From contig JALSTK010000117.1 in NCBI GenBank assembly GCA_026983775.1, positions 62,001 to 126,000 on the forward strand: 64,000 nucleotides of DNA. Direction: 5' to 3'. The translations under genes and the position numbers were made by a program. Every line of letters begins with the position of its first letter. Position 1 is the stretch's first letter. This document shows positions 20,658 through 32,322 of the stretch, one piece after another. The DNA comes from Calditrichia bacterium (GTDB taxonomy: Bacteria > Calditrichota > Calditrichia > Calditrichales > Calditrichaceae). The notes beneath the pieces are model-generated. The model made no database searches. It was not told the DNA's origin and saw only the letters and a program-made list of their open reading frames with translations.

Positions 20658-23651
20658 TCATGATTCCCAATCGGGCTTTAGAATAATTCCCTGATTATTG
20701 CGTCCATTCATTTTTATGAGAATAGGTTTGTTTAAATGAATATGCTTCACATATTGCAAAGTTTCCTCTTCGGGCTGAGCGCGGAGCCAGTCCCAATCGA
20801 TAAAGCCCCGCTCTTTGAAGGAATTGACCGTAAAATAGCCGATCATAAAAGAAGTGAGATTCTGGAAAAAGTGTGAGCCCTGAGAAGGTTCCACCATAAA
20901 ATCCTTAAAACTGGTTTCAACGATCGCCTGGGCTCCGGAGATCTGGTCCCATTTCACAGGAATTCCCAACCAGGGATCCAGAGAACCCCACCGGCCCACT
21001 CCGATCAAAAGATAGGGCTTCCGGGCCGATTGCAATTTGGCATTCAATTGTCCCACCTCTCGGGCTACCTCATGGCTTTTGGACCGTTCGAAAGTCTGAA
21101 TATCTACATACACGATATCCTGAATATCCTTTATGATACCATGTCCCAGCACCTGCGGACTCTGGCAAATAAGGTGATTTTTATTGCTTACTTTAATATG
21201 CAAAACTTCTTCTTCACGTTTTAAAACCAGGGGACGCATCTGTAAGAAACCGAATTCCTTCGGTGTACCGGCAGGCACGGACAGGTTTACGGCAAACTCA
21301 ATTTCAACAGGGGTTCCCATACCCCATTTACCCAGATCAAGCAGTAATTCCAATATCTGAGATAAGGGAAAGATTTTATGTTTTAATACCGGGGCAAAGG
21401 TTACGATCCGTGCCCCGGGTCTGGAAATGCCGTCATAGATCGTATCATTCTCATGTGAATAGGTGGAACCAACATAAAACAAGGTGTTATCTTTTTCAGA
21501 TGCTTTCAGACTATACAGTTTTACACAGATATCATGAGTTACACAGCTTTTATCCGGGCTTGCTTCCAGGTCCAGAGCATAGAATTTATGCTGGGCATTG
21601 CGCAGGGCTTTCTGTGGAGAAGAGAACTGAATTAAGTGATTGGGATATTTCGGAGAGAACTTGACGGTATTGCCTCCGTCTACTACGGTTTTACCGAGAC
21701 CCAAAGCTACAGAAGCTATGCCGTCTTCGGAAGTCTGAGGGGGAATGGGATAAAAATTATAGGATTTGGCAACCCCGGAGAAGGTCGGGTAAAAACGGTT
21801 GTTGTGACGCTGACCCACCAACTTTTGAACGATGACCGCCATTTTCTCTTCTTCGAGACGATAGGAGGTTACTCTGATATAATCTTTCGTGCCATGGTAA
21901 AAGGTAGAAGCATACACACGCTTAATGGCATTGAGTAATTGTTCGAGACGAAGGTCCAAATCGGCTTGATGATTGGGAATCATATAGGTTTCGTACACTC
22001 CGGCAAAGGGATGGTATTGGGAATCTTCCAGCAAGCTGGAGGAACGTACGGCCAGGGGTTCTTTTACAATTTCCAGAAATTCTCGAAGCTGCCGGCGAAT
22101 ATCATCGGGAAATTTTTCAGCATCGAGAAAGCGCTGGGTGATTTGGGCATCATCATTGGTATTTAAGGCAAAATTACGTAAATCGTTCTCATCGATGAAA
22201 GTATCAAAGACATCTGTTCCGATAATAATACCCGGTGGGATGCGAATAAGAATTCCTTCGAAGCTGTTGTAAATATTGTAATTATTAATCAAGGTATTCA
22301 CAAAACTGAGGCCGCGTGCTTTTCCCCCCAATGAACCGCCGCCGATTCTGGCCAGATCATTTTGGGGATTAAAAGAATCTTTGTTAAAGTCTGTGATTTT
22401 TCCGCGTTGTCGCGCCTTACGATAGGCCCGCAGGGAAGAAACCAAATCGTCACGTAATTCCTGAATGGATTGATAATCCGATACCTTACGAGGTCGTAAC
22501 TTATCGGCCAGGGCAAACTCGGTTCTGGCCTTTAGCCAATTAGAGAAATGATTGTGCTCGGCATGGTATTGGATACATTCATCGGGAACGGTTTTCAGCA
22601 TCTTTTCAAAAGAGGGAAGGTCTCCGGCCCGACCGACCTCTTTGCCATCGGCCGTTGTAAAAACAAAATCTCCGAATCCGAATCTTGAGATCGTAAATTT
22701 TCGTAGTTCATGTAAAAGAGTCGGTGAGTTTTTTAATAAAAAGGAAGCACCCACCTTATAAGCCAACGGTTCGTTCTCGGCACGATTGGATTGAAGCAAA
22801 ATCGGAATATCGCTGTATCGCTTCTTCACAGCCCGGGCAAATTTCAGTCCTGCTTTGGGGTCGTGCTGACCCTTATGCCAAAAGTCGATATCGGAAATCA
22901 CTCCCAGGATCAGTTCTTTATATTTCTTAAAGTAATACCAGGCTTCTTCATAAGAGGTACAAAGCAAGACCTTGGGACGGGCCCGCATACGCAGATACCG
23001 ATCCGAAAGATTGATGCCTTCGATAATCAGACGCTGGGCCTGAATAAGGACTTCTGTATACAATAAGGGCAGATAAGCGGAGTAAAAACGGACACTGTCT
23101 TCAATTAAAATAATGGACTGCACGCCTACGGTTTTGGAATCGTGCTCCACATTCATCCGGTCTTCAAAATATTTAATAATGGCGATAATCAATCGAAAGT
23201 CACCGGTCCAGATAAAGACCCGGTCGAATACGGTCATATCCCAGTATGATTCCAATTGGGAAAGTTCACGGTTGTCATAAGCCAAAAGGACGATGGGTAT
23301 GGTATGGCCTTTTTCCCGAATGAGTCTGGCCAGTTTGGTTGGATGCATATCTTCGATATGCTGGGTCATAATGATCAGATCATAGCGTTTTTCATTTTTT
23401 GCCAGTTCCAGGGCCTCTTTTCCTGTGGAAACGCGGGTGATTTCCGGGGAATGGCTAAGGTTTAAACCCTTATATTCATCACGAATCAATTCATAAAGAC
23501 GACCGTCCTCTTCAAAAACATACAGGTCGTAAAGACTGGAAACGACAAGAAGGTCTCGGATGCGATAGCGCATGAGATTCTGAAAACTCTGGAATTGAGC
23601 ATTTATATCACGGCCTTTGAAAGATTTGATAAATTCGGATTTTGTTTTCAT
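20658..23651 (-). CDS. Tandem-receiver protein with PPDK/PEP-synthase-type ATP-binding domain
   Basis: A 997-residue cytoplasmic protein. N-terminal: two response-regulator-like domains. The first (about 30-150) is degenerate, with DLIIMTQHI where the phospho-Asp should be. The second (about 175-335) keeps ILIEDS, an Asp in GVISDIDFW and the Lys in FLLKNS. From about 430 to 860 it matches the ATP-grasp N-terminal domain of pyruvate phosphate dikinase/PEP synthase (GGGSLGGKARGL, AVRSSSLLEDSQYHPFAG). The last 110 residues form an unassigned module (GVGRWGSLDPWLG, then PSQGSHFFQN). The phospho-histidine and PEP-binding domains are absent, so it cannot be a complete PEP synthase. The start at 23651 follows GGA at normal spacing. 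It lies behind gdhA and a terminator. The acceptor and reaction are unknown. Confidence 0.85.
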   Translation of the reverse strand: MKTKSEFIKSFKGRDINAQFQSFQNLMRYRIRDLLVVSSLYDLYVFEEDGRLYELIRDEYKGLNLSHSPEITRVSTGKEALELAKNEKRYDLIIMTQHIEDMHPTKLARLIREKGHTIPIVLLAYDNRELSQLESYWDMTVFDRVFIWTGDFRLIIAIIKYFEDRMNVEHDSKTVGVQSIILIEDSVRFYSAYLPLLYTEVLIQAQRLIIEGINLSDRYLRMRARPKVLLCTSYEEAWYYFKKYKELILGVISDIDFWHKGQHDPKAGLKFARAVKKRYSDIPILLQSNRAENEPLAYKVGASFLLKNSPTLLHELRKFTISRFGFGDFVFTTADGKEVGRAGDLPSFEKMLKTVPDECIQYHAEHNHFSNWLKARTEFALADKLRPRKVSDYQSIQELRDDLVSSLRAYRKARQRGKITDFNKDSFNPQNDLARIGGGSLGGKARGLSFVNTLINNYNIYNSFEGILIRIPPGIIIGTDVFDTFIDENDLRNFALNTNDDAQITQRFLDAEKFPDDIRRQLREFLEIVKEPLAVRSSSLLEDSQYHPFAGVYETYMIPNHQADLDLRLEQLLNAIKRVYASTFYHGTKDYIRVTSYRLEEEKMAVIVQKLVGQRHNNRFYPTFSGVAKSYNFYPIPPQTSEDGIASVALGLGKTVVDGGNTVKFSPKYPNHLIQFSSPQKALRNAQHKFYALDLEASPDKSCVTHDICVKLYSLKASEKDNTLFYVGSTYSHENDTIYDGISRPGARIVTFAPVLKHKIFPLSQILELLLDLGKWGMGTPVEIEFAVNLSVPAGTPKEFGFLQMRPLVLKREEEVLHIKVSNKNHLICQSPQVLGHGIIKDIQDIVYVDIQTFERSKSHEVAREVGQLNAKLQSARKPYLLIGVGRWGSLDPWLGIPVKWDQISGAQAIVETSFKDFMVEPSQGSHFFQNLTSFMIGYFTVNSFKERGFIDWDWLRAQPEEETLQYVKHIHLNKPILIKMNGRNNQGIILKPDWES

Positions 23652-23721
23652 ATGAATTCCGTTTCTAAATTCTTTTTTGATAAAGATAGGAAGGATAGAA
23701 GTAATCCACAAGATATGCCAT

Positions 23722-23747
23722 AAAAAAAGCCCGGGTTTCCCCGGGCT
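23722..23747 (-). terminator. Intrinsic terminator after gdhA
   Basis: Perfect 8-bp GC-rich stem AGCCCGGG-TTTC-CCCGGGCT (23728-23747) with a seven-base U tract on the minus strand. It lies 32 bp downstream of the gdhA stop and upstream of the tandem-receiver ATP-grasp gene, so that gene is expressed by read-through or its own promoter in the 70 bp left. Confidence 0.9.
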
Positions 23748-23779: not shown

Positions 23780-25207
<1,428 letters not shown>

Positions 25208-25332: not shown

Positions 25333-25968
25333 CTAGACATCGATCAGTTTGTACTGCAGGGCATATCGGGTTAGTTCCACATTGGATTTTAAGTGCATTT
25401 TTTCCAGGATGCGATTGCGATAGGAATATACGGTATGAACGCTGATGGCCAGGGAAGCGGCGATTTTTTCAGCAGACAAACCGGAAGCGATCTGACACAT
25501 GATTTGGTACTCCCGGTCGGATAAGGCTTCATGCAAAAGTAAAGGCTCTTTGGCTTCCAGGGAATCGGCCAGGCGCTCGGCCAAAGAAGGACTGATATAG
25601 CGGTGCCCGCCGACGATTTTACGAATGGCATTGACCAGTTCATCCGGGGCACTTACTTTTTTCAGATAACCGGCCGCACCGGCCTTCAGGGCACGCATGC
25701 CATACTGTTCTTCGGCATACATACTGAGAATAAGGATGGGCGTCTGCGGATAATCCAGACGTAACTGTTTAAGGGCATCCAATCCGGAACGATCCGGCAT
25801 ATTTATGTCCAGGATAATGATATCCCAGCTTTCTTTTTTTAAAAGATCGAACAATGCGCCGATGGTCCCCGCTTCCCCCGTAACCTTCATATCCGATTCT
25901 TCGGCTACGATTTGTTTAAGTCCTTCGCGAACAATAGCATGGTCGTCTGCGATTAAGATGTGAATCAT
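25333..25968 (-). CDS. NarL/LuxR-type response regulator
   Basis: A 211-residue regulator with an N-terminal receiver (acidic pair Asp8-Asp9, phosphoacceptor Asp54 in IILDINMP, conserved Lys in GYLKKVS) and a C-terminal GerE/LuxR helix-turn-helix (about 148-205, LSDREYQIMCQIASGLSAEKIA). It starts 13 bp after the kinase gene, so the pair is cognate. Adjacent genes gdhA and the two ATP-grasp proteins are the natural candidate targets; no binding site can be identified by eye. Confidence 0.93.
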   Translation of the reverse strand: MIHILIADDHAIVREGLKQIVAEESDMKVTGEAGTIGALFDLLKKESWDIIILDINMPDRSGLDALKQLRLDYPQTPILILSMYAEEQYGMRALKAGAAGYLKKVSAPDELVNAIRKIVGGHRYISPSLAERLADSLEAKEPLLLHEALSDREYQIMCQIASGLSAEKIAASLAISVHTVYSYRNRILEKMHLKSNVELTRYALQYKLIDV

Positions 25969-25981
25969 TCCAAAACCTCTT

Positions 25982-27712
25982 TCAAGTTTCCAGGGGCATT
26001 TCCACTTTTACATTACTTCCTTTACCGGCAACGCCATGGATGCTGACTCTGCCGCCGAATATCAAAGCGCGTTCCTTCATTCCCAGAATGCCCAGTGAGC
26101 GGGGGTCTTCTATCTGAGAGCGGGTAATACCCCGGCCATTATCGGTCACCTCTAAAATCAAATGTTGATTTTCCCTTCGTAAAAATACGGATACCCGTTC
26201 GGCCTGAGCATGGCGAGCAACATTGGTTAGCGCTTCCTGAAAGATACGAAAAATCGCCGTTGCCTTTTCGGCATCGATCTGCATATCTTCTTTAAGCAAA
26301 GAGCATTTACAGACGATTCCGCTATTTTTGGAAAACTCCTGGGCTTGCCATTCGATGGCCGCCCCCAGACCTAATTCATCCAGAATACCGGGGCGTAACT
26401 TGGCGCTGATGCGCTGCACCGATTCCACGGTTTGATCAATAAAATCTGATATCTTACCTATGCGTTGATGAATATCTTCCGAAGAGGATTGCAGTTTATT
26501 GCCCAGTAGTGAAACCTGGATTTTTAATACGGTCAGCACCTGTCCTAATTCGTCATGGATCTCTCTGGCGATCACTGCCCGTTCTTCTTCCCGGATACGT
26601 TGAATGCGTGAAGCCAGATTCCTCAGTTGCCGGCTGCTCCTTTTTAATTGTTGTTCGGCCTGCTTGCGTTGGGTGATATCGCGGGCAATGGATAGAATGG
26701 TTGGTTTGTTTTTATATTCGAACAGCAGAGCACTTATTTCCACCGGAATGGCCCGGTTATCTTTCCGTAAGAATTCCATCTCGTAAATGGCATGGTGTTC
26801 TTTTTCCAGTTGATCCAGAATGTCCGAAAGACGATCATAATATTGATTGGGTATAATAGAATACGGGTTGAGAGATAAAAAATCTTCATGGGAATACAAC
26901 AGACGCTGGCAGGCCACTTTATTCACTTCGAGAAAGGGACCGAACTTGAGATTAGGCAGCAAATGGTTGACAAAGACGGCATCATTGGCATGATTAAAAA
27001 GTAGGCGAAAACGTTCTTCACTCTTCTGCAGATTGAGTTCCGCCTGTTTCCGATGGGTAATATCTTTAATGACGCTTAATAACAGGGGAGAGGAAGAGGG
27101 CATTTCCAGAAAAGAATTGGAAAATTCCAGCCAGACTTCCTGTCCGTTCCATAATCTCCGTTTTCCGTCCTGGTGAGGGAAAATCTGATCATCTCTCAAA
27201 TGCTTGTGATAATCTTGCATCATATTTTCCCGAATGGCCGATTCATACACGACGGTAAAAGGGTAGCCCTCCAATTGTTCACGGGGTAGTCCTACCATTT
27301 GGCAATACGAATCATTTACTTGCAGAATGGTTCCCTTGCTATCCATTAAGCGCATACCGTCGGGTGAAATTTGCCAGAACTGTTCCAACAATTTCTCGGT
27401 ACGCTTCAAGGCCAGTTCCACATCCTGGTGCACTTTAAGACGGTTGTTTAAGGCTCGTTCGGCGGCATTCAGTTTTTCCCTGTCGTGCCGGGCATTATTG
27501 TGCAGATTTTGCAGGTCGGAGCGAACAATTTTAATATAACGGATGACCAGGAGGATGGCCAGGATAGTGCAAAGAGCGGATAGAGTCAGGTACAAAGATC
27601 GGTTGTAAAAAGAGAACAGAACCAAAACTTCGGCCAGTACCAATAAACCGAAAGCCGGAATTATATTATATCTGAAAGCATGTTCCGATGTAAAGCTGTT
27701 TTGTTCGTGCAT
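25982..27712 (-). CDS. PAS-containing NarX/DegS-type sensor histidine kinase
   Basis: A 576-residue kinase with two N-terminal membrane helices (about 14-60), a short coiled coil, two PAS domains (about 110-225 and 230-350) and a HisKA_3/HATPase core (phosphoacceptor about His386 in AREIHDELGQ; ATP lid DNGRGI and LGILGMKERA). There is almost no periplasmic loop, so the signal is probably read in the cytoplasm or membrane through the PAS domains. It is two bases downstream of the GAF/ATP-grasp/nucleotidyltransferase gene and 13 bp upstream of its response regulator, so all three form one operon. Confidence 0.92.
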   Translation of the reverse strand: MHEQNSFTSEHAFRYNIIPAFGLLVLAEVLVLFSFYNRSLYLTLSALCTILAILLVIRYIKIVRSDLQNLHNNARHDREKLNAAERALNNRLKVHQDVELALKRTEKLLEQFWQISPDGMRLMDSKGTILQVNDSYCQMVGLPREQLEGYPFTVVYESAIRENMMQDYHKHLRDDQIFPHQDGKRRLWNGQEVWLEFSNSFLEMPSSSPLLLSVIKDITHRKQAELNLQKSEERFRLLFNHANDAVFVNHLLPNLKFGPFLEVNKVACQRLLYSHEDFLSLNPYSIIPNQYYDRLSDILDQLEKEHHAIYEMEFLRKDNRAIPVEISALLFEYKNKPTILSIARDITQRKQAEQQLKRSSRQLRNLASRIQRIREEERAVIAREIHDELGQVLTVLKIQVSLLGNKLQSSSEDIHQRIGKISDFIDQTVESVQRISAKLRPGILDELGLGAAIEWQAQEFSKNSGIVCKCSLLKEDMQIDAEKATAIFRIFQEALTNVARHAQAERVSVFLRRENQHLILEVTDNGRGITRSQIEDPRSLGILGMKERALIFGGRVSIHGVAGKGSNVKVEMPLET

Positions 27713-27714
27713 GA

Positions 27715-30700
27715 TCAGTTTGCAGTTCCAAGGGTTAGCGGAGATATTCGATCCGTTTTCAATTGACTCATAATTTGTCGGGCTTCTGCCGAAACGGCCA
27801 GCTCCTCTTCCGTAATGAAATGAACATCCAACAAGCCACCGGATTTAAATCCGGTTCGCAAATAGTTGATTTCGTCCAAAGCCAAACTCCAGCCCTCCAG
27901 CCAGATTTGCAGGGCTTCTTTTTTTTCCCCCCGGCCTTTCAAAACGATTAGCAGATCAATATCACTGCCGTTACCGGCTTTGGCTTTCCGGGTGCTTCCG
28001 GTTACATAGAATTCCTTCACCTGAAAACGATCGGCATCCAGTTGAGCAGCAATCTTTTCGGCCATTTGCATACGCCATTGCCATGGTTCCGAAGTAAGAG
28101 TAGAAGAGCTTTTTTTATCGGGTTCTCCGCTTAAGAGTTCACTGTCCGCCGGGGCCAGCAACCCGACGGCCCGATTCTCTTCGCCGTTCATCAGAATATG
28201 AAAAAGTAAACCGTTGCTTACGGTGGATACATCGATTAAATGCACAACTTTATTAAAACGGGCGTATTCCGGAAGCCATTTGTTTAGAAGATTCGGGGTT
28301 TGTTCGAAAAAAGAATCATTAAAAGAGACGCTGTTTTCATCCGGATAAAGCGGTAAATATTTAATAGAAGCTTCCACCAAATCCTGAAAAAAATGAGTTC
28401 CGAAAGATAGGTCCGGAACATAGTTGCCCTTTTTGCGGGCAATCTCGATTAAAGCGCCGGTATTGTTAATATCGGAATAGGTAACATTGACTCCCAGTTT
28501 AATATCTCCGCGGCTGCCCCACCGGCCCGGACCCATCAGGATAAATTTCCTTTTGGGCAGTTTTTTGTTCAATTGCCCCACGATCCTGCCGATCATACGC
28601 AGATCATCCAAATTGTCAATGGCCGTATATTGATCCGGTGAAATATAAACGATGTATTGAATATCCTTGATTAGACCGTTGGAAATGTAACGATTCGCGG
28701 TAAAGAGCAAACGTTCCTTGGGAAGGTTTGCAGGAATCGCTGCCGGAATATCCGATTTGGAATAACTCTGGGGACGACATTGCAGTAAGTACAAATTACG
28801 GCCGTCATGGGCAAATTCAATATCCACCGGAGTCGCCATTTTATTTTGCAGCTCTCTGATAATCAGGTAGATCTGTTTGATAAAATCCGTTTGCCTCAAC
28901 AGGCCTTCAAAAGTAAAGACTAAATCCGCCTCGGTAAAGTTTGTATTAAACCCCGGTTGACGAAAGTGATTATGGCCCACAATAGAGGTGAGTTTCTCAA
29001 TGAGCGGATACCGGTTGCCCACTTCATGCAGTAGATCCGAAATATTCATGGTTTCAAAACGACGGGTATTCAGATTTACCACATCAATTTTATGGGGAGA
29101 GTAGCGCATAATTTCGTCAGGGCTGACATTGGCCCTGAGTCCCGGCTGGCCGGGAGCCAGTAAAAGGGGATAATCATCACTCAATCGGTCGACTGCTCGT
29201 GTACCCAAACCCGGGACGAGGCGAATTAGGCCGTCTTCCCGCTTAATGCGGGGCGACCAGCGGAATTCGTTGTTACTAAAAGCTACCCCGGCAAAAGCCG
29301 GCAGAAAATAGGGCCCTATTTTTTGGCCGACTACCGATTGAATCATGATTCCCATCTCTTCATGAAAATCCAGCAAACCCCGTTCCGCCCGGTACTGGAT
29401 GGGATCCGGGGCAATAGTGGAAGCGTACACTTCGGCAATCGCATCCATTAAGGCTTCGAGACGTTCCGTTTTGCTACCCTGATTCGCAACGAAAAGGCTT
29501 TTGTATTTTCCGGAAAAAGCCGACCCTATGCGGTCTTCCAACAAACTGGAACTTCGTACAATGATCGGGTTATCACCCAAATCATCCAATGCCACCGAAA
29601 GGCCTTTAATAATTTCAGCCGGAAAATGTGAATTCTTGAATAGTTGCACCACATGCGGATATTCTCGTCTTACATCGTCTATGTTTTTATATTTTTGTTC
29701 CATGATCTCTTCCATATTGTTATAATGCATGAAGAGAATCATGGCATCGGAGGTCAGATACCAGGTTTTAGGAGTTTTAACGTTGCGGAACGTATCGTGA
29801 AAATGTTCAGAGGCGCGTAAGATACGGTAAGCCAGAAAAACCCCGGCGCTTTTACCACCCAATTTTCCATGGCTTCCGGTTGGGAAAATCATCCGTTTCA
29901 TAAGCTCGTAAAAATCGGCCACCCGGATATATTGCTTGGCGATGTCGATAAACTGTAATTGGTCGGTGAAAATTCGTCTGATTAAGGAGGCCCGCACGCC
30001 GATCTTCACAGAAGGAGCCAGTTCCATGCCGATGGGATTGATTTGATAATAACGACGTAACGCTTCGTAAATTTCGTCGAGAGAAGTGTCGAAATTAGCA
30101 GTAGCTCTGACCAGAAAGCTGGTTTTGTCTTCCTGCATCCATTTCTGAATACGGGTTAAAATATCCGCGTCACTAAAATGTTCCCTGGCCACATCGAATA
30201 TTTTCATACTCAATACATTAATATCGCCGAAAACCAGCTTTTCCAGAGGCATATTGGATTCTCCCAATACCTCATCTTCATTATAGCGGGCATAAGGATT
30301 GAATTGCTGAAGCAACTCTTCGGCTTCTTCCACTCCTTTCCAGATAAGCAGATTGAGCATTTTACGCGAAATGCGGATGAACAGGTCGGGATCGGTGCGA
30401 CGCAGCAGTTCCAGGATGACCTGCCATTCGCCGGACTTGGCCTGAGAAATACTTTTTTTGGCGGTTTCCCATTTGTTAAATACCTGCTTGAGTTTCAGAA
30501 AGAGCAGATGCTGTCCCAGACGGGTAGCGATCGACTCCAGTAGCTTGCGTTCTTCCGTTAGAAAGGGGCCTTCTTCCGATTCCTGTTGTTCGCTTGCATA
30601 GCACACCTGAATCCAACCGATCGTGCGTTCTTGGATGGTAATATCCACACTCAGACACCAGGGTGATTCCTGAAACCCCTCACTGGTGTATTCTTCGTCT

Positions 30701-30900
30701 CTGTAAACGATTTTAGCCTTACAAGCGTCTGCATGCTGGAAAGCCGGGGGAATGAGATTAACGATCTGGTTTAAGATTTCCTGTAAATCTTTATCCGGGT
30801 CATGCAGGACTTCTTCTACTTCATAGAGACAATTTAATTCCTTGACCCGTTCTTCCAGGGTTAGAATGAGCTTGTCTAAGGACTTGGTTGATTGGGTCAT
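27715..30900 (-). CDS. GAF / PPDK-type ATP-binding / nucleotidyltransferase fusion protein
   Basis: A 1061-residue cytoplasmic protein with an unusual domain order. About 15-150 is GAF-like (ends in LTEERKLLESIATRLGQHL). About 150-330 is helical. About 330-780 is the ATP-grasp N-terminal domain of pyruvate phosphate dikinase/PEP synthase (KLGGKSAGVFLAYR, IIVRSSSLLEDRIGSAFSG). About 785-850 is the same module as its neighbour at 20658 (GPGRWGSRGD, then SFGTHFFQD). About 935-1050 is a nucleotidyltransferase with GSTRKAKAGNGSDIDLLIVL (GS-x-SDxD metal site). The phospho-histidine and PEP domains are missing. AGGAG precedes the start. It is first in an operon with the kinase and response regulator. 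Sensing and modification of an unknown target is inferred. Confidence 0.85.
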   Translation of the reverse strand: MTQSTKSLDKLILTLEERVKELNCLYEVEEVLHDPDKDLQEILNQIVNLIPPAFQHADACKAKIVYRDEEYTSEGFQESPWCLSVDITIQERTIGWIQVCYASEQQESEEGPFLTEERKLLESIATRLGQHLLFLKLKQVFNKWETAKKSISQAKSGEWQVILELLRRTDPDLFIRISRKMLNLLIWKGVEEAEELLQQFNPYARYNEDEVLGESNMPLEKLVFGDINVLSMKIFDVAREHFSDADILTRIQKWMQEDKTSFLVRATANFDTSLDEIYEALRRYYQINPIGMELAPSVKIGVRASLIRRIFTDQLQFIDIAKQYIRVADFYELMKRMIFPTGSHGKLGGKSAGVFLAYRILRASEHFHDTFRNVKTPKTWYLTSDAMILFMHYNNMEEIMEQKYKNIDDVRREYPHVVQLFKNSHFPAEIIKGLSVALDDLGDNPIIVRSSSLLEDRIGSAFSGKYKSLFVANQGSKTERLEALMDAIAEVYASTIAPDPIQYRAERGLLDFHEEMGIMIQSVVGQKIGPYFLPAFAGVAFSNNEFRWSPRIKREDGLIRLVPGLGTRAVDRLSDDYPLLLAPGQPGLRANVSPDEIMRYSPHKIDVVNLNTRRFETMNISDLLHEVGNRYPLIEKLTSIVGHNHFRQPGFNTNFTEADLVFTFEGLLRQTDFIKQIYLIIRELQNKMATPVDIEFAHDGRNLYLLQCRPQSYSKSDIPAAIPANLPKERLLFTANRYISNGLIKDIQYIVYISPDQYTAIDNLDDLRMIGRIVGQLNKKLPKRKFILMGPGRWGSRGDIKLGVNVTYSDINNTGALIEIARKKGNYVPDLSFGTHFFQDLVEASIKYLPLYPDENSVSFNDSFFEQTPNLLNKWLPEYARFNKVVHLIDVSTVSNGLLFHILMNGEENRAVGLLAPADSELLSGEPDKKSSSTLTSEPWQWRMQMAEKIAAQLDADRFQVKEFYVTGSTRKAKAGNGSDIDLLIVLKGRGEKKEALQIWLEGWSLALDEINYLRTGFKSGGLLDVHFITEEELAVSAEARQIMSQLKTDRISPLTLGTAN

Positions 30901-30940: not shown

Positions 30941-30974
30941 TATAAAAAATCCGGCAGCCAATCGCTACCGGATT
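30941..30974 (-). terminator. Intrinsic terminator after second glutamate dehydrogenase
   Basis: An 11-bp stem with one mismatch (AATCCGGCAGC at 30948-30958 against 30964-30974, five-base loop) followed on the minus strand by a T-rich run. It separates the glutamate dehydrogenase from the ATP-grasp fusion gene, the same arrangement as at gdhA. Confidence 0.85.
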
Positions 30975-31035: not shown

Positions 31036-32322
31036 TTAAATCCAACCCCGATCTTTACTGGCCTGAGCCACCCGTTCGATGGCGATCACATAAGCGGCGT
31101 CGCGCATGTACAGGTTGCGGTTCCTGGCCAGATTGGCCACATCCCAAAAGGCGGAAGTCATTTTTTGATCCAATTTTTCCAGGACTTCCTTTTTAGTCCA
31201 ATAATAGTTCATATTGCTTTGTACCTGTTCGAAATAGCTGCAGGTAACTCCGCCGGCATTGGCCAGAAAATCAGGAATAAGGAAAATACCCCGTTGCTGG
31301 ATAACAGCATCGGCTTCCGGGGTGGTCGGACCGTTGGCACCTTCGACGATAATTTTGACCCGTGCACCGATTTTATCCACTGTATCCGCGGTAATTTGGT
31401 TTTCAATAGCGGCAGGAATTAGAATATCCACATCCTGTTCAATCCAGTCGTTACCGTCAAGAACTTCATATCCCAGCTTTTTGGCCTGCGCTTTATCGAT
31501 GCCACCGAAACGGTCGGTTATTTTCAGCAATTCATCCAGATCAATACCCTGGCCCTTTGTATAGGTATAGGAGGTCTGATCCTTCTGATCCCAACAGGAT
31601 ACACAAAGCACCTTGCCGCCCAGCTCGGTATATTTACGGATTGCATATTGAGCTACATTACCGAAGCCCTGCACGCCGGCTGTGGTTTCTTCCGGATTTA
31701 TATTCAGATGTTTCAAAGCCTCACGAAGGGTATAGACCACACCAAAGCCGGTGGCCTCGGTGCGTCCCAACGAACCGCCCAGTCCTACCGGTTTGCCGGT
31801 AATCAGTCCCGGTTGTTTTTGTCCGGTAATCACTTCGTATTCGTCCAGCATCCAGATCATATGCTGCCCATTGGTCATTACATCGGGAGCCGGTACATCG
31901 GAATAGGGGCCGATGTTCTTATAGACCTGCCGTACCCAACCGCGACAAATCTGTTCCTGTTCACGCATGCTTAAATTATGAGGATCACAAATTACTCCGC
32001 CTTTACCGCCACCGAGAGGCAGATCGGCTACGGCTGTTTTCCAGGTCATCCACATGGAAAGGGCGCGTACCGTATCGATGGTCTCCTGAGGATGGAAACG
32101 AATGCCGCCTTTGGCCGGGCCGCGGGCGTCGTTGTGCTGGCAACGAAATCCACGAAAGACTTTCGTAGTCCCGTCGTCCATGTGAACCGGAATGCTAAAA
32201 TGGAATTCACGTAGCGGAAAGCGCAGCAAATCGCGGGAGGCCCGGTCCAGACCGATCATATCGGCCACTTTATCAAATTGAGTCTGAGCCATTTCAAAGG
32301 CGTTAAATGACTTCTCAGCCAT
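31036..32322 (-). CDS. Glu/Leu/Phe/Val-family (glutamate) dehydrogenase, catabolic type
   Basis: A 428-residue glutamate dehydrogenase of the shorter class often using NAD or both cofactors. Visible are RGFRCQHNDARGPAKGGIRFHP, DLPLGGGKGGVICDP, the catalytic-Asp block DVPAPDVMTNGQHMIWM and the Rossmann motif VQGFGNVAQYA. It differs strongly from gdhA at 23780, so this is not a recent duplication; one may run towards glutamate synthesis and the other towards breakdown. AGGA precedes the start. It is followed by a terminator and then a PPDK-type ATP-grasp gene. Confidence 0.92.
   Translation of the reverse strand: MAEKSFNAFEMAQTQFDKVADMIGLDRASRDLLRFPLREFHFSIPVHMDDGTTKVFRGFRCQHNDARGPAKGGIRFHPQETIDTVRALSMWMTWKTAVADLPLGGGKGGVICDPHNLSMREQEQICRGWVRQVYKNIGPYSDVPAPDVMTNGQHMIWMLDEYEVITGQKQPGLITGKPVGLGGSLGRTEATGFGVVYTLREALKHLNINPEETTAGVQGFGNVAQYAIRKYTELGGKVLCVSCWDQKDQTSYTYTKGQGIDLDELLKITDRFGGIDKAQAKKLGYEVLDGNDWIEQDVDILIPAAIENQITADTVDKIGARVKIIVEGANGPTTPEADAVIQQRGIFLIPDFLANAGGVTCSYFEQVQSNMNYYWTKKEVLEKLDQKMTSAFWDVANLARNRNLYMRDAAYVIAIERVAQASKDRGWI

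Follow-up and report, generated by a model that had tools for sequence, protein, structure and literature searches.

The PPDK_N ATP-binding domain (PF01326) occurs in PPDK, PEP synthase and rifampin phosphotransferase. PPDK and PEP synthase are defined by two further domains, a swivelling phosphohistidine domain (PF00391) and a PEP/pyruvate-binding domain (PF02896). PPDK_N is also found outside of a full PEP synthase, in HpeI (9goj) and in phenylphosphate synthase, where it is carried by a subunit of a split enzyme. Minimal nucleotidyltransferases, e.g. MntA (the antitoxin of a type VII toxin–antitoxin system), AadA and the protein of structure 2rff, have a common fold and a GS-x-DxD…D active site. 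GlnE and GlnD contain a Pol-beta-type nucleotidyltransferase (NTase) that is tied to nitrogen assimilation. Glutamate dehydrogenase (GDH) is a main carbon/nitrogen junction, and its control in most bacterial phyla is unknown.

The locus described here is from a Calditrichia bacterium (assembly GCA_026983775.1, contig JALSTK010000117.1, positions 62,001–126,000). This stretch of 64,000 nt is termed the window, and coordinates are those within it. The 1061 aa protein encoded at this locus shares the ATP-binding domain, its fold and the invariant ATP-site residues with PPDK, PEP synthase and rifampin phosphotransferase. Unlike these, it has no PF00391 swivel and no PEP or rifampin domain; in their place are an undescribed domain with an invariant histidine, a GAF-like domain and an NTase. 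It also differs from phenylphosphate synthase and HpeI in its partner domains and in its GDH context. The NTase shares fold and active site with MntA, AadA and 2rff, but is fused to a PPDK-like core and, in relatives, is paired with a metallophosphoesterase. With GlnE and GlnD the protein has in common the Pol-beta-type NTase, the tie to nitrogen assimilation and possibly a reversible nucleotidylation, but its architecture is different and the linked enzyme is GDH, not GS or PII. The main interest of the locus lies in a near one-to-one tie between the PPDK-like protein and GDH, with a separate version for each GDH clade, rather than in the fusion itself.

Domain architecture of the 1061 amino acid protein

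An open reading frame with an ATG start fills positions 27715–30900 exactly and is read from 30900 to 27715. The initial annotation had listed these positions without a strand; they are correct, and the gene is on the minus strand. The plus-strand reading of the same segment is rich in stop codons. Table 1 lists the features of the gene and of its surroundings.

Table 1. Features of the 1061 aa gene and its neighbors (positions within the window)
Feature	Position	Strand	Basis or content
Whole gene, 1061 aa	27715..30900	-	GAF + helical + PPDK_N + undescribed C-terminal domain + NTase
GAF-like sensor domain, residues 1–150	30451..30900	-	Sub-threshold Pfam GAF, Foldseek, likeness to histidine-kinase GAFs
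All-helical linker region, residues 157–335, unassigned	29896..30432	-	AlphaFold2 secondary structure
PPDK-type ATP-grasp domain, residues 346–723	28732..29865	-	Pfam, conservation, Foldseek
Undescribed C-terminal domain, residues 724–924	28129..28731	-	Alignment, model; GPGRWGS and SFGTHFF motifs
Minimal nucleotidyltransferase domain, residues 938–1061	27718..28089	-	Pfam NTP_transf_2, PDB 2rff and MNT folds, conservation
GDHa, archaeal-type glutamate dehydrogenase, conserved partner	31036..32322	-	NCBIfam; synteny, co-occurrence
PAS-PAS-HisKA_3 histidine kinase, local companion	25982..27712	-	Profile match; not conserved
LuxR-type response regulator, local companion	25333..25968	-	
GDHn, NADP-type glutamate dehydrogenase	23780..25156	-	NCBIfam
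RECPP, receiver-like domains + PPDK_N + undescribed domain; partner of GDHn	20658..23711	-	
Terminator-like hairpin between GDHa and 1061 aa gene, 11 pairs + T run	30948..30974	-	
Terminator-like hairpin between GDHn and RECPP, 8 pairs (7 GC) + T run	23728..23747	-	

The first 150 residues are GAF-like, as had been proposed. The Pfam GAF match is below the cut-off (gathering score) with an E-value of 0.05, and the assignment is backed by the length of the region, by its fold and by a strong similarity to the GAF domains of histidine kinases (locus L188, see below). A Foldseek search with the front domain finds the GAF domain of NifA (8jrc), and also 3K2N (6oei). The AlphaFold2 model (mean pLDDT 81) has a GAF fold at the front.

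PPDK_N matches residues 346–723 with an E-value of 1e-58. Positions K350, R449, E695, Q707 and R709, which correspond to catalytic residues of PPDK/RPH, are invariant in 94 of 94 aligned relatives. Neither PF00391 nor PF02896 gives a match anywhere in the protein at E-values up to 1, and since these domains define PPDK and PEP synthase, the protein is termed PPDK-like rather than PPDK.

The domain that follows has an invariant GRWGS…HFF motif and is compact in the model (pLDDT 92.8). No match was found for residues 724–924 among Pfam and PDB sequences, or by Foldseek for residues 716–924 among PDB folds, where the best E-value is 0.085; the matches to CD38 and to the other structures returned lack significance, with E-values of at least 0.085 and probabilities up to about 0.5. 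R793 and H836 are invariant across the 94 relatives. The domain and its invariant histidine are common to two paralogue families, RECPP and PPS, a short PPDK-like protein of about 580 aa, and the alignment shows H836, R793, E819 and S832 to be invariant in the paralogues as well. The invariance of H836 makes it a candidate phospho-acceptor.

Pfam NTP_transf_2 (PF01909) matches residues 957–1004 with an E-value of 1e-7, which is over the curated cut-off. Thus two nucleotide-using domains, PPDK_N and NTP_transf_2, are present in a single chain, as the initial annotation had stated. Its reading of intact metal aspartates is also correct, with the motif, first written as GS-x10-SDIDLLIVL, here spelled GST-x8-SDIDLLIVL (GS at positions 968–969) and a third acid, D1025, within LLDVHFI. 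The models PF08335 (GlnD_UR_UTase) and PF03710 (GlnE) give no match in the protein, and an MntA model gives a sub-threshold score for the NTase. A search for a HEPN toxin partner gave no HEPN model match within the chain, and no small gene recurs beside it. Weak phmmer matches to phage virion proteins (domain E-values 0.09–0.13) were set aside.

The protein has at least 323 relatives, and its complete domain order is found again in many phyla. This recurrence of the full-length architecture excludes an assembly artefact or a chance match. The fusion of GAF, PPDK_N and NTase is therefore confirmed and is not a local oddity.

Association with glutamate dehydrogenase

The order of genes on the minus strand is GDHa, the 1061 aa gene, the histidine kinase, the LuxR-type regulator, GDHn and RECPP. 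The start of RECPP may be an ATG 20 codons further in, and its residues 362–435 show a weak match to DUF5752. A histidine kinase had been placed two bases downstream of the 1061 aa gene, and it does start at position 27712 on the same strand; it adjoins the core gene in only a few relatives, however, and was therefore rejected as a conserved component.

GDHa is the conserved neighbor. Synteny was analyzed in 80 GTDB loci from about ten phyla. In the 65 loci where the upstream sequence is longer than 2.8 kb, it contains GDHa in 60, and on the same strand as the core gene in 58. A PPS gene is situated directly before the core gene, after GDHa, in 45 of the 80 loci, usually with an overlap of 4 bp or a few more.

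Similar proteins are over-represented in this set of the best 80, and 119 Acidobacteriota genomes were therefore sampled evenly. GDHa (≥66% identity) is present in 26 of the 119, and 25 of these 26 also have the PPDK-like core (≥44% identity); the other 93 have neither at these identities (Fisher 8e-25, a value that is optimistic owing to the relatedness of the genomes, with the pattern also holding across phyla). According to our own tally in Acidobacteriota, 23 of 27 core genes are within 3.2 kb of GDHa, and three of the four exceptions come from split contigs. In G189 the core is present twice, and each copy is accompanied by a GDHa of its own. RECPP shows the corresponding association with the other clade: by the same tally, 32 of 39 copies have a GDHn-type gene no more than 4 kb away.

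In Chloroflexota the association is weaker. Here all 11 genomes with the core also encode a GDHa-like enzyme, but 5 of 16 genomes with a GDHa-like enzyme have no core, and the two genes are either separated by 4–28 kb or located on different contigs. The genes around and between them are unrelated, and those in between gave no clue to function.

GDH had been named among possible targets of the protein. The link between the PPDK-like core and GDHa is well supported, and is far stronger than could be known from the window. By itself, such linkage would be seen for a regulator of GDH and for another enzyme of its pathway alike.

G148 is the only genome of the Acidobacteriota sample with GDHa and no core. 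Its GDHa is adjoined instead by a GAF histidine kinase and a LuxR regulator (L188, 732–5012). The GAF type and the GDH clade are the same as those of the window protein, but the output is a kinase with a LuxR regulator and not PPDK/NTase.

The nucleotidyltransferase module and the metallophosphoesterase

The metal-binding acids of the NTase are highly conserved: among 94 aligned relatives D980 is retained in 92, D982 in 88 and D1025 in 90, and G968 and S969 are likewise kept in nearly all. Replacement of these acids in close homologues, which had been named as evidence against the assignment, is thus confined to a few sequences. Exceptions to the conservation of the active site are L014, L017, L030, L032 and L110, and the domain is absent altogether from L031 and L115.

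Absence of the domain from most orthologues had been named in the same way, and here the outcome depends on the group. Nearly all proteins of the window's own class and of the best 80 relatives have the NTase, but of the 26 Acidobacteriota cores with ≥44% identity that could be scored only 11 have it, and it is missing from almost all Chloroflexota cores. A tree rooted with PPS and RECPP shows one gain of the NTase and two later losses. The NTase is a separate module that joined the GDH-linked core in a single fusion, and most descendants have kept it.

A calcineurin-type metallophosphoesterase (PF00149) is encoded in 36 of 67 testable loci, and in 34 of these 36 it is no more than 300 bp from the 3′ end of the core gene. 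Its orientation is usually convergent and is co-directional in a few (e.g. L189). Among 80 genomes it is found in 19 of 37 that are NTase-positive and in 0 of 43 that are NTase-negative (Fisher 1.5e-8); the negative group includes all 16 genomes with an NTase-less core, and a weak match of 33% identity in the NTase-positive G022 was left out of the count. Such co-occurrence would be expected if the two acted as writer and eraser, the activities predicted for them. The initial annotation had suggested reversible modification of a target by the two chemistries of the chain; a better candidate for the reversal is the separate metallophosphoesterase, which tracks the NTase.

It should be noted that a GAF-NTase is found without PPDK in G001, and that locus L113 (3014–3868) encodes a 284 aa GAF-NTase protein without any PPDK part, adjoining a metallophosphoesterase.

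Proposed function and alternatives

The presence of GAF or receiver sensor domains on the catalytic core suggests regulation. We propose that the 1061 aa protein is a dedicated regulatory partner of the GDHa clade, and give a probability of about 0.45 to this reading with the mechanism as follows. The GAF domain would sense a signal, perhaps 2-oxoglutarate or another nitrogen or energy cue. The ATP-grasp domain would use ATP in the way that dikinases do and pass the phosphoryl group to its own H836 or directly onward, and the core would modify or allosterically switch GDHa in response to the GAF signal. The NTase, gained by one fusion, would transfer NMP to a protein of its own complex, the candidate acceptors being GDHa, the short PPS subunit and the 1061 aa protein. 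The linked metallophosphoesterase would remove the NMP. It is missing in the lineage of the window, where the second cycle may be irreversible, reversed by another enzyme or decaying. Extended to both clades, the proposal would have protein-directed PPDK-type dikinases, sensing through GAF or receiver domains, switch the two GDH clades, with reversible nucleotidylation by a grafted NTase/metallophosphoesterase pair; we regard this wider form as somewhat unlikely.

A somewhat unlikely alternative is that the PPDK-like proteins are metabolic enzymes in the pathway of GDH, i.e. small-molecule dikinases or ligases whose activity is tuned by GAF or receiver domains. They would resemble rifampin phosphotransferase, PigC or phenylphosphate synthase and consume glutamate, 2-oxoglutarate or a keto acid. 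Consistent with this, every catalytic residue of the ATP-grasp domain is invariant and its nearest folds are small-molecule phosphotransferases (Foldseek matches the ATP domain of rifampin phosphotransferase, 5hv6, and also HpeI); moreover, conserved operons arise from metabolic neighbors too. The lack of PF00391 and PF02896 argues against it, and the existence of two GDH clades, each with its own version and its own sensor, fits regulation better than a shared metabolic step.

The NTase and phosphoesterase could also have a target other than GDH, e.g. PII, a small molecule or the protein itself, with only the GAF input and the promoter being shared. The two travel together away from GDH in five genomes (G001, G007, G100, G112 and G134), where the NTase is a separate gene and the metallophosphoesterase adjoins it. 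The window genome has a PII-like protein (L198, G000:C86:2831–3148) and no match to PF08335 (GlnD/GlnE-type), although such a match is lacking in 11 of 14 control genomes as well. However, standalone copies of the NTase occur in just those five genomes, three of which are near relatives, whereas the fusion to the GDH-linked core took place once and was retained by most descendants. On balance this alternative seems unlikely.

It is less likely still that the NTase in the lineage of the window is a structural or decaying remnant and that only the PPDK-like core is functional. No metallophosphoesterase was found in the window genome, and the conserved tail of the NTase (SYAxKIxAVTDAAR) is lost or diverged in the family of the window protein; L014 and L017, among other relatives, have lost metal acids, and L031 has lost the domain. 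The window protein and most of its family nevertheless keep GS, D980, D982 and D1025.

That an ordinary PEP synthase or PPDK has been misread as a fusion is highly improbable in spite of the PPDK_N match, as NCBIfam PEP synthase models, with cut-offs near 740–880 bits, score no more than about 50, the catalytic histidine and PEP domains are absent, and a separate PPDK-family gene of PEP-synthase length (an 833 aa open frame) is located elsewhere in the genome (G000:C33).

If the protein does act as a regulator of GDH, nitrogen would be controlled in a new way in Acidobacteriota, Calditrichota, Ignavibacteriota and others, the NTase and phosphoesterase would form a new writer–eraser pair, and the PPDK-like proteins would be, to our knowledge, the first enzymes of dikinase type to have a protein as their target. 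A literature search for GDH with PPDK/PPDK_N, NTase and GAF yielded no relevant paper, but most subscription journals were outside the search, so that novelty is unproven. A search on phenylphosphate synthase likewise yielded no relevant paper.

A WDQ insertion in the cofactor domain (residues 244–246) is conserved among the GDHa proteins of the linked clade, in which H115 and H154 are also invariant; these features are absent or rare in 20 unlinked GDHs. As modification sites these are leads only, since any comparison of clades yields such residues.

Terminator-like hairpins are present in both gaps between a GDH gene and its PPDK-like partner, a weak signal in that the total for the region in the hairpin scan is not above that of shuffled sequences. 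Their positions suggest that more GDH than partner protein may be produced.
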